From positions 1-64,000 of the forward strand of contig JADBJJ010000029.1 in assembly GCA_014874475.1 (NCBI GenBank): DNA of 64,000 bases, given 5' to 3'. Numbering within the stretch: position 1 is the stretch's first letter; each line of letters begins with the position of its first letter. Both the position numbers and the translations under genes were made by a program. The notes under the pieces were generated by a model, which had not been told where the DNA came from, ran no database searches, and saw nothing but the letters and a program-made list of their open reading frames with translations. Of the stretch, positions 14,906-18,947 are shown piece after piece. The DNA comes from Chloroflexota bacterium. Its GTDB lineage: Bacteria > Chloroflexota > Anaerolineae > B4-G1 > DUEL01.

Positions 14906-15091
14906 GTAGAACGCGCGAACGGTGCACGCATGATGGGTCAGTGCGTTGATCGGCAGGTCCTTCCCGGTGCAAGGGGGTTATCAACCCGGAGAGTCGTACC
15001 GACTCCGCTCTTTCACAGAGATCCCTCCCCCTAACCCGCCATCTGGCGCACCCTGCCTGGCAAATCGTGATATCCCCGTGAGAAAGAGCGT

Positions 15092-15120
15092 TTATGGCGA
15101 CGGCTTCGCCGCCGCCATAA
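15092..15120 (-). terminator. Hairpin after the sulfur operon
   Basis: TTATGGCGACGGC-TTC-GCCGCCGCCATAA forms a 13-bp stem with one mismatch, 23 bases after the last gene of the operon. On the minus strand no strong U-tract follows, so termination strength is uncertain. Confidence 0.5.
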
Positions 15121-15142
15121 AAACGGATCGCAGAGGAAGCGC

Positions 15143-15457
15143 TTACGGCAGGACAACCCGGGCACCGGGCGGCGGCGCGTGCTCCCGAATCCATCCCTCA
15201 AACCACTCCCGGTCCAGCACTTGGATCAGCAGCGCCGCCCGATCGCTGCGCTGGTTGAGAATGTGGCGCAGTTCGGTAATCTTCTGGTAACACTCCTCAA
15301 AGGCCTGCTCTATCTCAGCCGAGGTAAGTTCCCCGGCTTTCCACTTCTCCATCCGCCGACACATCGGCTCCATCAACTGGCGCCAGCGATACTCCCGATA
15401 ATCCGCCACCAGCCGATCTTCCCACCATTGAGTGGATGAGGACTCGCGCGGGTCCAT
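15143..15457 (-). CDS. Conserved-looking small protein of unknown function, last gene of the sulfur operon
   Basis: 104 aa, no recognised family. The start MDPRESSSTQWWEDRL is chosen because GGGAGGTAC lies 6 bases before it. The protein is charged and rich in Trp/Glu/Arg, predicted mainly helical and cytoplasmic, with two Cys (one in MEPMCRRMEKW, one in FEECYQKI). There is no signal peptide or membrane segment. It follows the DsrK-like gene by 54 bases on the same strand and precedes the hairpin at 15092, so it is probably co-transcribed with the TusA/DsrE/DsrMK-like genes. A role in that pathway is guilt by association only. Confidence 0.65.
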   Translation of the reverse strand: MDPRESSSTQWWEDRLVADYREYRWRQLMEPMCRRMEKWKAGELTSAEIEQAFEECYQKITELRHILNQRSDRAALLIQVLDREWFEGWIREHAPPPGARVVLP

Positions 15458-15511
15458 TTTGTACCTCCCTGATTCCGAAGGACCAGGCACTTTTTGAAAC
15501 GCCTGGCTCTC

Positions 15512-16762
15512 TCATCTCACTATCAGCGCGTCGGCGATCAGGTCCACCGCGCCCTTGATTTCCACGCCCAAACCGTAGCGCTCGCTCAGGTCTGCCAGTT
15601 GCGTCTTACAGTTCTCGCAGGTGGTGACCACCCACCGGGCACCAGTGCGCTGAATCTGTTCCACTTTGGGCCGCCCGGCCTTCATCCGGACCTCCAACAT
15701 GTCCGGCTCGGCGATCATCCCGCCGCCCCCGCCGCAGCACCAGTTCAGTTCCCGGTTGGGCGTCAGTTCCTGAAAGTCAGTGGCGACCGCGCGGATAAGC
15801 ATGCGCGGCTCCTCATAGATGCCCGCGTTTCGGCCCAGGTTGCAGGGATCGTGATAGGTCATCGGTACATCAAAAGCGCCAGGCTGGACCTGGATGCGTC
15901 CCTCCTGGAGATACGAGGCGACCAGTTGGACAACGCTGACCCGCTGAATGCCCACCAACTCTTCCCCGAACCAGTGGTCCCAGAAGTTCAGCAGGGTCCG
16001 GGTGGCGTGGCCGCACTCCGCGTAGGCGATGACCTGCACGCCCAGCCGTCGGGCCTCTTCCACAATCCAGTGGGCCGCCTGTTTGGCCTTCTCTATATCG
16101 CCGACGAAGAAGGAATGGTTGGTGGCGGTGAACATGCTCAACGTCCAGGACTCCTTCGCGGCATGGAAGATTTTGGCCAGGGGGATAATGGCGTGCTCGC
16201 CCACGACGGGGACATAGAGGACGCGCGCCGGTTCGTCCACCGGGATGCGCAGGTCGGGGACGCCCCATTCCTGACGGATGCGCTCTGCCAGTTCCCGGAC
16301 CTGGTCCACAAAGAACTCCTTGAGGGCGTCTATGATTTCCCCTTTGCTGACCTCAGCGTTGCCGATTTCAGCGACCATCTCCATCCCCATCCCCTCCTGG
16401 CCCAGGGCGTAGCGGCCCACATTCACCATCAGCGCCGTATCCAGGTCAAAGGGGCAGAAGACGGAGCACCGTCGGCAGCCAGTGCACTCCCAGAGTGCCT
16501 TCCGGAGTTCTGCCACCATTTGCTCGCTGGCCATACCGGTCTCCCGGTACCAGCCCAGGAGCCCCTTCCGACCGTTGCCGCCCTGCTGGAGCAGTTTCTT
16601 GACCAGCATCATCCGATAGGCCGGGATGTGGGCCGGATGGCCAGAGGTAACGTAGAAGTGGCAGGCGTCTATACAAGCCCCGCAGCGGACGCAAATGTCC
16701 TGGTAGTACTGAAGCGGGCGAGTGATGCGCTGACGAAGCGTGTCCAGGAATTTGGTCAACAT
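15512..16762 (-). CDS. DsrK/HdrD-like iron-sulfur oxidoreductase
   Basis: 416 aa cytoplasmic Fe-S protein. Two [4Fe-4S] ferredoxin motifs lie at the N-terminus (Cys24/27/30/34 and Cys93/96/99/103). Two CCG-type domains follow, the second with PCNLGRN, NWCCGGGGG and TCENCKTQL, as in HdrD, DsrK and TmcB, which form a noncubane cluster for disulfide chemistry. In DsrMK-type complexes this subunit exchanges electrons between the membrane quinone pool and a cytoplasmic disulfide or trisulfide. The membrane partner ends 10 bases upstream. GGAGG precedes the ATG. The natural substrate is not known; linkage to TusA and a DsrE-like protein points to a sulfur-carrier-bound persulfide or disulfide. Confidence 0.85.
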   Translation of the reverse strand: MLTKFLDTLRQRITRPLQYYQDICVRCGACIDACHFYVTSGHPAHIPAYRMMLVKKLLQQGGNGRKGLLGWYRETGMASEQMVAELRKALWECTGCRRCSVFCPFDLDTALMVNVGRYALGQEGMGMEMVAEIGNAEVSKGEIIDALKEFFVDQVRELAERIRQEWGVPDLRIPVDEPARVLYVPVVGEHAIIPLAKIFHAAKESWTLSMFTATNHSFFVGDIEKAKQAAHWIVEEARRLGVQVIAYAECGHATRTLLNFWDHWFGEELVGIQRVSVVQLVASYLQEGRIQVQPGAFDVPMTYHDPCNLGRNAGIYEEPRMLIRAVATDFQELTPNRELNWCCGGGGGMIAEPDMLEVRMKAGRPKVEQIQRTGARWVVTTCENCKTQLADLSERYGLGVEIKGAVDLIADALIVR

Positions 16763-16772
16763 CGCGTCCTCC

Positions 16773-17486
16773 TTAACTCCGGGCGACCATCTTGGAGAGC
16801 ACCGAGCCGATGATGTGGCTCAGTTTGCCAAAGGGAAAGTAGACCATCAGCACTTGGACCAGGGCAAAGTGCCAGATGAAAGCGGGCCCCGCGCTCTCAG
16901 GGACCGGCTGCCAGCGGAAGGAAGCCAGTCCGGCGAAAAAGCGATGCAGTTCCTCCACCTCCACCGTCCGCAGGAGGCGCATGTGGAAGCCGGTCAGGGC
17001 AATGCTGATGAGCAGGAGGAGAACGAAGAAGTCTTCCGGGACGGAGAGCCACTTGACTGCGCCGCTCCAGCGGCGGGCCAGCAGGTAGAAGAGGGGGATA
17101 GTGAAGAGCGTCCCGGCGATCGTCCCGGCGACAGCGGAGAAGGTATGCTGTTGCTCCTTGCCCCAGTTCAGTAGTTTCCACAGGAAGTAGAAGTCGGTGA
17201 AGGCCCGCACGTGGCCGACGAGAACGAAGAGGAGCCCCAGATGCATAATGAAGCCGCCGGCCCAGAGGAGCGGGTTCACCCGCAAGAGCCCCTTTAGGGT
17301 GAACATATCCACCAGAGCATCCAGCAGGCGGCCCAGTCGGCTCTGGGGACGGGGGAACAGGGAGAAGCGAGCCGGCGCCAGCTTTTTCTGCCACCACCGG
17401 TAGACTCGGTATGCCAGCCCGCCGAAGAAGACAGCGACAGCAATATAGGGGAAGACATAATAGAACAGAAAGGCTATGGTTGCCAT
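16773..17486 (-). CDS. DsrM/NarI-like membrane cytochrome b subunit
   Basis: 237 aa with about five hydrophobic segments (residues 3-23, 75-100, 120-150, 165-190, 205-230). His residues in MHLGLLFVLVGH, QQHTFSAV, TGFHMRLL and FIWHFALVQ could ligate b haems as in the NarI/DsrM family. The predicted role is quinone-linked electron transfer to the DsrK-like subunit encoded next. The start MATIAFLFYY is chosen from GGAGGTG upstream. In-frame residues further upstream are not membrane-like. Confidence 0.82.
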   Translation of the reverse strand: MATIAFLFYYVFPYIAVAVFFGGLAYRVYRWWQKKLAPARFSLFPRPQSRLGRLLDALVDMFTLKGLLRVNPLLWAGGFIMHLGLLFVLVGHVRAFTDFYFLWKLLNWGKEQQHTFSAVAGTIAGTLFTIPLFYLLARRWSGAVKWLSVPEDFFVLLLLISIALTGFHMRLLRTVEVEELHRFFAGLASFRWQPVPESAGPAFIWHFALVQVLMVYFPFGKLSHIIGSVLSKMVARS

Positions 17487-17713
17487 CGGCACCTCCGCTC
17501 GTAGCGCAAGATTTGGCGGCTTCGCCAGGGATTCCAGCAATAGCCTGCGGGGAGATTTGCCCCCTCCCCGCGCTGCGAAGTGGCTGCATGGAGAGGACGG
17601 GGGAGGGGCGAGACCCTAAGGTTTCGGCGGCGGCTTGCCGGAGTCACCTTTCAAGGTGCAACATCTTGCGCCAAGACACAAGACCTCTCTTGCGTTACGC
17701 TCAATTTGGGGGG
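17487..17713 (-). other. Intergenic region inside the sulfur operon
   Basis: A 227-base gap between tusA and the membrane cytochrome gene. It contains an imperfect GC-rich hairpin near 17541-17612 (CCCCTCCCC...GGGAGGGGC) and no convincing reading frame. It may modulate expression of the downstream DsrMK-like pair relative to TusA/DsrE. Confidence 0.35.
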
Positions 17714-17953
17714 TTACTTCACCCGGCGAATCCAGAACTTGAAGACGCCGTCGCCCTTCTCCATTCCGACCAGTTCGTTACCGGTGCTCTTACACCATGC
17801 CTGGATGTCGGCCACGGAGCCAGGGTCAGTCGCCAGCACTTCCAGAACACCGCCCACGGAGATGTTCTTGATTTCCTGGCTGGTCTTGACGACCGGCATA
17901 GGGCACTTCAGCCCACGGGCATCCAGCGTCTTCTCGGGAGTGTAATCTGCCAT
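17714..17953 (-). CDS. tusA: TusA-family sulfur carrier protein
   Basis: 79 aa, the usual family length. It has LDARGLKCPMPVV with the persulfide-carrying Cys17 in the CPxP motif. TusA passes sulfane sulfur between enzymes in the cytoplasm. AAGGAGG lies 6 bases before the ATG. A second Cys is at position 54. Its neighbour upstream is a DsrE-like protein, the usual partner of TusA. Confidence 0.93.
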   Translation of the reverse strand: MADYTPEKTLDARGLKCPMPVVKTSQEIKNISVGGVLEVLATDPGSVADIQAWCKSTGNELVGMEKGDGVFKFWIRRVK

Positions 17954-17983
17954 CTCTGCCTCCTTGTATGATTGTGTACTGGC

Positions 17984-18469
17984 CTAAATAAACAACGTGA
18001 TGTGAGATTGGTTTGCTTCGGCAATGTAGGTCGCCGCGCCGACGACGTCGGTGACCTCGTCAATCAGGTCCTCCCGGCGGATGCCCATAACCTCCATACT
18101 CATTTGGCAGGCCAGGAGTTTGACCCCCAGGTCAATCGCCATCTGGCGCAGTTCTGGAAGGGTAGTCACATTCTGCTGCTTCATCATCTTCTTGAACATC
18201 CAGCGGCCCATCCCGCCCATGTTCAATTTGCTGGGGCCTATGCGGTCAATGTCCTTGAAGAAGAGGCTCAGCATCCTCTGGAAGAGAGTCTGCCCGGTGG
18301 AGACTCGTTTTTTGATGGCCTGGAGACCCCAGAAAGTAAAGAACATAGTGGTCTCAATGCCGCTGGCGGCGGCGGTGGTGGCAATAATGAAGGCCGCCAT
18401 TACCTTGTCCATATCGCCGCTGAAGACAACGATGGACGCTTTTCGGGCTTCGTGTTCGTGCTCGTTCAT
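17984..18469 (-). CDS. DsrE2-like sulfurtransferase/peroxiredoxin-family protein
   Basis: 161 aa, DsrE/F-like fold (KASIVVFSGDMDKVMAAFIIA at the N-terminus, MFFTFWGLQAI in the middle). A single candidate sulfur-binding residue, Cys121, sits in LLACQMSMEVMGI, the position of the active Cys in DsrE2-type proteins. A basic, Met-rich segment (residues 80-100) may contact membrane or partner. It is predicted to accept or donate sulfane sulfur with the TusA encoded 30 bases downstream. AAGGAG precedes the ATG. Confidence 0.87.
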   Translation of the reverse strand: MNEHEHEARKASIVVFSGDMDKVMAAFIIATTAAASGIETTMFFTFWGLQAIKKRVSTGQTLFQRMLSLFFKDIDRIGPSKLNMGGMGRWMFKKMMKQQNVTTLPELRQMAIDLGVKLLACQMSMEVMGIRREDLIDEVTDVVGAATYIAEANQSHITLFI

Positions 18470-18529
18470 CGGACTCCTTTACAATGATAAAGTTTAAAAA
18501 GACGGGGCCACACGGGCCCCTGCTCTTCC

Positions 18530-18880
18530 CTATCGCCCCACGACGCTCATTTGCTCCGCCAGGCCGCTCCGCAGGGCCAGTTGGTCCCGCAACACATCCC
18601 GCAGCAGGTTCAGCGCCTGGATAACCCGTTCGTCGGCCAGGGCGTAATAGACCGCCGTCCCTTCCTGCTCGGCAGCGACCAGACCGCGCTCGCGCAGAAT
18701 CTTCAGGTGATGGGAAACGGTGGGTTGAGGCAATCCCAGGGTCTCTGCCAGGTCCGTCACCCGGCAGGGGCCTTCAGCAAGGGCATAGAGGAGCAGAATC
18801 CGCTTGGGGTCCGCCAATCCCTGGCAGACCTGCGCGTGCAGAAGGGCAATCTCTTGCTGGAGATCAAGGGTGATAGACAT
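18530..18880 (-). CDS. ArsR/SmtB-family transcriptional regulator, first gene of the sulfur operon
   Basis: 116 aa winged-helix repressor type. The HTH is visible as VTDLAETLGLPQPTVSHHLKILRERGLV and the wing as EQEGTAVYYAL. It has two Cys (19 and 39). The canonical ELCVCDL metal site is not present; the equivalent region reads AEGPCRVTDLA. The two Cys could instead sense sulfide or persulfide by forming a di- or trisulfide, as known for BigR/SqrR-type regulators; this is inference. Two palindromes between its promoter and ATG are candidate operators, consistent with autoregulation of the whole operon. Confidence 0.9.
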   Translation of the reverse strand: MSITLDLQQEIALLHAQVCQGLADPKRILLLYALAEGPCRVTDLAETLGLPQPTVSHHLKILRERGLVAAEQEGTAVYYALADERVIQALNLLRDVLRDQLALRSGLAEQMSVVGR

Positions 18881-18890
18881 ATGAATATGT
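18877..18890 (-). promoter_or_regulatory. Candidate ArsR operator 1 (overlaps the arsR start codon)
   Basis: Perfect inverted repeat ACATAT-GA-ATATGT overlapping the ATG. Its centre is about 23 bp, two helical turns, from the second palindrome. Confidence 0.5.
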
Positions 18891-18900
18891 TTCTATGCAA

Positions 18901-18912
18901 GTATTTAAATAC
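18901..18912 (-). promoter_or_regulatory. Candidate ArsR operator 2
   Basis: Perfect 12-bp palindrome GTATTTAAATAC at the expected transcription start, downstream of the -10 element. A bound dimer here would block initiation. Confidence 0.5.
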
Positions 18913-18919
18913 CTTTGAG

Positions 18920-18947
18920 ATTATACCACGAATCCGAAAAAGCGCAA
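18920..18947 (-). promoter_or_regulatory. Putative promoter of the sulfur operon
   Basis: TTGCGC (18942-18947) and a perfect TATAAT (18920-18925) with a 16-base spacer on the minus strand. It begins only about 14 bases beyond the stop of the upstream M50-like gene, and no terminator is seen between. Confidence 0.65.

Follow-up and report, generated by a model that had tools for sequence, protein, structure and literature searches.

Can a membrane complex of the DsrMK type exchange electrons with sulfur carriers of its own, in bacteria that encode neither DsrAB nor DsrC? This question is raised by a locus in a Chloroflexota bacterium of the class Anaerolineae (assembly GCA_014874475.1), which we analyzed within a window of 64,000 nucleotides, the whole stretch of DNA under study (contig JADBJJ010000029.1). 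A reading made from the letters of this DNA, here called the sequence-only reading, had proposed an operon of ArsR, DsrE, TusA and DsrM/K-like genes with an unknown last gene. All six genes are there, on the minus strand from 18880 to 15143, in the order arsR, dsrE2-like, tusA, dsrM-like, dsrK-like and a small unknown gene.

Layout of the operon and its protein families

On its downstream side the operon is bordered by rpoC and on its upstream side by an M50-like protease gene, and none of the genes within these bounds is dsrJ, dsrO or dsrP. Intergenic gaps are 10 to 60 bp, except for 227 bp between tusA and dsrM, where close relatives have about 17 bp. Past the last gene, a 14-bp inverted repeat (15091..15121, minus strand) may mark the end of transcription. 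The same gene order recurs at each rank from genus to class, and beyond that in other phyla, so the set is not a chance assembly. We refer to the operon and its counterparts as the cassette.

Two of the genes encode sulfur carriers. The dsrE2-like gene (17984..18469, minus strand) belongs to PF13686 (9.6e-50) and scores 88 bits against the DsrE2 equivalog NF047629, below its cut-off of 210. Its product is similar to structures 3PNX and 2QS7 and nearest to DsrE2B-type proteins, 2QS7 being the Sulfolobus homologue of Metallosphaera cuprina DsrE2B; Cys121 is conserved in 95% of 44 cassette DsrE proteins. The tusA gene (17714..17953, minus strand) combines a PF01206 match (1.8e-27) with the active Cys of the CPxP motif, here Cys17 in CPMP, which is present in 46/46 cassettes (100%). 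Since this is its only conserved Cys, a redox form of TusA would be a persulfide, a thiosulfonate or a mixed disulfide, for example with DsrE, whereas DsrC forms an internal disulfide, an option that TusA does not have. M. cuprina DsrE2B was unreactive toward every sulfur compound tried (PMC4175335), and because the window DsrE resembles the Sulfolobus protein 2QS7, its role may be one of docking or regulation. The sulfane relay from DsrE to TusA in the sequence-only reading is thus left with both carriers encoded, whereas the transfer itself we can only infer, with a DsrE nearest to a type of which one member is unreactive.

The dsrM-like gene (16773..17486, minus strand; preferred start ATG at 17486) encodes a membrane cytochrome b of the NarI/DsrM type (PF02665, 4.7e-18), predicted to be a diheme protein. 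It reaches 101 bits against the canonical DsrM model NF038037, whose cut-off is 300. DsrM proteins of the window type have invariant His82, His92, His206 and His224, spaced like the NarI heme ligands, whose positions we take as the basis for reading these residues as ligands; the alignment to NarI itself (1Q16, chain C) is weak, at E 0.026. In other cassettes (L053, L056, L063, L065, L073, L083 and others), the place of dsrM is occupied by a second subtype, a membrane protein with three invariant His and no Pfam match, which is homologous to the window type by profile comparison (hhalign 96%).

The dsrK-like gene (15512..16762, minus strand) encodes an iron-sulfur subunit matching Pfam CCG (2e-14) and Fer4_8 (1.4e-12), with 240 bits against the canonical DsrK model NF045796 (cut-off 400). 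It has two CxxCxxCxxxC motifs for 4Fe-4S clusters and a CCG noncubane motif ending in CENC. Across cassette DsrK proteins all cluster Cys are invariant and the CCG motif ends in C-x-x-C (CENC or CDNC), where three deltaproteobacterial genomes with dsrAB have C-x-x-D (CAID) in their canonical DsrK; C-x-x-C also occurs in two canonical Chloroflexota DsrK rows. With these noncubane Cys, two 4Fe-4S motifs and a NarI-like partner gene with four heme His, the pair is of the broad DsrMK type and resembles DsrMK and DsrMKJOP. It differs from them in its scores below both canonical cut-offs, in its dedicated tusA and dsrE2 genes and in a DsrK that falls in a separate clade.

The first gene, arsR (18530..18880, minus strand; PF01022, HTH_5, 1.6e-19), encodes a repressor of the ArsR/SmtB family whose closest solved relatives are NmtR, CmtR and SmtB. 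Among 34 cassette ArsR proteins, Cys19 is conserved in 91% and His15 in 79%, and Cys19 is the only conserved Cys. The known sulfane-sulfur repressors sHdrR, SoxR, SqrR and BigR have two common sensing Cys, both of them required (PMC12423496). The cassette ArsR shares with sHdrR, SoxR and BigR the ArsR fold and the control of sulfur genes, but it lacks the two-Cys signature, one Cys alone being conserved among the 34 cassette proteins, and we rejected an sHdrR-type sulfane sensor on this mismatch. A palindrome, GTATTTAAATAC (18901..18912, no strand assigned), separates a TATAAT-like box from the start of arsR and is a candidate operator. Palindromes of the form WATTCGVW are enriched upstream of arsR, occurring in 10/30 loci against 0.6 expected from shuffles.

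Spread of the cassette and other sulfur genes in its genomes

DsrK was found in 12/60 relatives, with the order dsrE-tusA-dsrM-dsrK in most fetched stretches; three more distant loci among the 12 vary or end early. Within Chloroflexota this DsrK is sparse, with 16 matches at E<1e-60 in 400 genomes. Where a DsrK match exceeds about 39% identity, dsrE and tusA nearly always lie immediately upstream of it; with weaker matches they do not. Among the matches listed for named species, the full cassette with arsR, which is the first gene in most cassettes, occurs in Chloroflexota (Anaerolineae, Dehalococcoidia, Thermoflexus), Actinomycetota (Coriobacteriia, Anaerosomatales) and Myxococcota, and the cassette without arsR occurs in Bacillota and Kryptonia. 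In a quick DsrK tree, built without bootstrap and rooted arbitrarily, the window protein belongs to a 58-row clade (SH-aLRT 98), and the canonical DsrK proteins from dsrAB genomes lie elsewhere. The full dsrE-tusA-dsrM neighborhood accompanies 48/58 of these rows, and several of the other 10 are at the ends of contigs or fetched stretches. The sequence-only reading had named two findings that would count against it, a scattering of the genes in related genomes and dsrAB elsewhere in the genome; the genes are in fact linked across relatives. Variant arrangements occur: in L077 dsrE follows dsrK, and L086 has dsrE twice. Beyond the cassette there are no conserved neighbors of note except a heavy-metal-type P-ATPase gene in 7 loci (L057, L058, L060, L062, L068, L075 and L080).

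The second of those findings was not borne out either. The window genome (3.0 Mb, 32 contigs, 97.7% complete) has no protein with a NIR_SIR domain and therefore no dsrAB, and it has no DsrC, DsrH or SoxB; the combination of DsrAB with DsrC that would place it in the Dsr pathway is missing, as is a SoxB over cut-off for the Sox system. Together with the gene linkage, this supports the stand-alone module of sulfur relay and quinone link that the sequence-only reading had envisaged. The 58 cassette-bearing genome entries include five pairs with identical coordinates (G006/G455, G048/G475, G084/G485, G121/G457 and G209/G470); each pair is one genome, which leaves about 53 distinct genomes. DsrA is over cut-off in 4 of them, DsrC in 6 and SoxB in none; the same searches detected DsrA and DsrC in a Desulfomonile genome, which served as the positive control. 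Where a cassette genome has dsrAB, separate genes encode the cassette DsrK (261-274 bits) and the canonical DsrK (509-737 bits). A Desulfomonile sulfate reducer (G494 L163, the genome of L099) carries the dsrE-tusA-dsrM-dsrK set in addition to its canonical DsrK and DsrAB. A YeeE/YedE protein, which is not diagnostic, is encoded in about 21 of the 53 genomes and, away from the cassette, in the window genome.

Other CCG proteins of the window genome look like HdrB, TfrB/GlpC and GlcF types, and some adjoin HdrA, MvhD-like or NiFe hydrogenase genes. The stretches read around them contain no six-gene sHdr cluster (hdrC1B1A-hyp-hdrC2B2) and look HdrABC/Mvh-like, an assignment made from NCBIfam matches below cut-off and from reading the sequence. 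One cluster (L169:6897-18042, C12 of the window genome) combines HdrA pieces, a NiFe hydrogenase large subunit and a GcvH-like protein with a protein bearing a CxxCH heme-like motif and two TfrB/DsrK-like proteins.

Candidate roles and relation to known systems

With a probability of about 0.6, we read the operon as encoding a membrane complex of the DsrMK type for which dedicated sulfur carriers take the place of DsrC and DsrAB. As judged from sequence, such a complex would best be described as an oxidoreductase for persulfides or heterodisulfides that is linked to quinone and has TusA, rather than DsrC, as its protein substrate. In sulfate reducers, DsrK is oriented to the cytoplasm and is able to reduce DsrC (PMC8076601), and PMC10504309 likewise has canonical DsrK reducing DsrC. 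The window genome has no DsrC, and its operon pairs tusA with the DsrMK genes, which suggests TusA as the natural substrate. A cytoplasmic DsrK would form or break a persulfide or (hetero)disulfide on Cys17 of TusA at its noncubane CCG cluster, and electrons would pass, in either direction, between its two 4Fe-4S clusters, the two b hemes of DsrM and menaquinone. DsrE2 would exchange sulfur with TusA or dock with it, and ArsR would bind the palindrome in the promoter of its gene and so repress the operon. Because TusA has further roles, in tRNA thiolation and for Moco, linkage alone does not prove that it is the substrate of DsrK. Also counting against this reading are the membrane subtype with three invariant His and an ArsR unlike the known sulfane sensors.

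We lean toward oxidation, with sulfide or persulfide electrons passing to the quinone pool (about 55:35, the rest going to other functions), because oxidation of sulfide or persulfide by menaquinone is the favorable direction. The distribution of terminal oxidases does not settle the matter: COX1 is present in 36 of the about 53 genomes and none is shown in 17, about a third, so that an oxidizing role is not uniform. The reverse flow is somewhat unlikely in our estimate; menaquinol electrons would then reduce persulfide, polysulfide or trisulfide bound to TusA or DsrE through DsrMK, and sulfide would be released. Such a device would serve sulfur respiration or the disposal of excess persulfide. 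It would match the reduction of DsrC by canonical DsrK (PMC8076601, PMC10504309), would reach sulfide without a further enzyme and would suit the genomes for which no COX1 is shown. Most cassette genomes do have an oxidase, however, and for menaquinol the reduction of persulfide is an uphill step, except with a heterodisulfide of higher potential as substrate.

Two further explanations fare less well. The fold and cofactor motifs would also fit an ordinary DsrMK that feeds DsrC and DsrAB, accompanied by dsrE and tusA like that of sulfur oxidizers. The window genome, however, is without NIR_SIR protein, DsrC and DsrH, the few cassette genomes with DsrAB keep a separate canonical DsrK beside it, and cassette DsrK forms its own clade; we rejected this explanation, now very improbable, on the absence of DsrAB and DsrC and on the DsrK phylogeny. 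It is also improbable, though less so, that the operon is a module against metal or thiol stress, in which ArsR would sense a soft metal and the relay would supply or remove sulfide to protect the cell. The solved relatives of ArsR, its conserved Cys and His15, which could form a metal site, and the nearby P-ATPase point that way, but the P-ATPase is missing from most loci and respiratory subunits would be expensive for mere sequestration.

The cassette shares with the dsrE3A-dsrE2B-tusA genes of M. cuprina sHdr (PMC4175335) the placement of dsrE and tusA beside a heterodisulfide-reductase-like enzyme, but in the cassette the partner is a membrane-bound DsrMK, with no HdrA/B/C hexagene and no dihydrolipoamide dehydrogenase. 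The YTD cluster and DsrEFH type II (PMC12998232, PMC13293266) likewise join tusA to a dsrE-family gene; the cassette differs in having no adjacent yedE, which the YTD cluster combines with tusA, dsrE and two to three conserved hypothetical genes, and no dsrEFH trio, in having DsrMK genes and in occurring in other phyla. Basal Chloroflexi DsrM proteins from organisms without DsrAB are on record in the available text of PMC10504309 and probably include the cassette family, whereas the linkage to tusA and dsrE, the regulation and the spread are not described in that text. In the open-access papers that we searched, a part of the whole literature, we found no description of the arsR-dsrE2-tusA-dsrM-dsrK arrangement.

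Recurrence of the cassette in many unrelated bacteria suggests a previously undescribed, stand-alone route by which protein-bound sulfur could exchange electrons with the respiratory chain. Tentatively, at not quite an even chance, it may represent a new type of respiratory complex, a menaquinone-linked TusA-persulfide oxidoreductase that is self-sufficient without DsrAB, DsrC, sHdr or Sox and is found in several phyla. The markers from which sulfur cycling is deduced are dsrAB, sox and shdr. If this last reading is true, sulfur metabolism would be hidden in many bacteria scored as sulfur-inactive by standard marker genes, and uncultured Chloroflexota and Coriobacteriia in particular would contain a new kind of candidate sulfur metabolizer. 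It would also make testable the idea that DsrMK-type complexes can act on TusA without DsrC.

The last gene and the tusA-dsrM insert

The last gene (15143..15457, minus strand; preferred start ATG at 15457) encodes a small protein of 104 aa with no match in Pfam, NCBIfam, PHROG or PDB. Its AF2 model is a helical hairpin (pLDDT 88.8) with no fold match in the PDB; its relatives share one invariant Cys only (C33), and no cofactor motif was seen in the sequence comparison. High-scoring relatives occur in 9/396 genomes of the class, directly after a window-subtype dsrK wherever the contig continues and was read; two sit at a contig end. Several close relatives (L023, L025 and L026) have no such gene downstream of dsrK, so it is not essential, and its distribution marks it as an accessory of the closest subgroup. 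Of the six-gene set in the sequence-only reading, then, five genes are conserved, whereas the sixth is confined to this clade.

The insert that widens the tusA-dsrM gap (17487-17713) is strongly foldable and is missing from close relatives. It has about 81% similarity over 63 bp to a second site in the same genome (L170:5087-5148).
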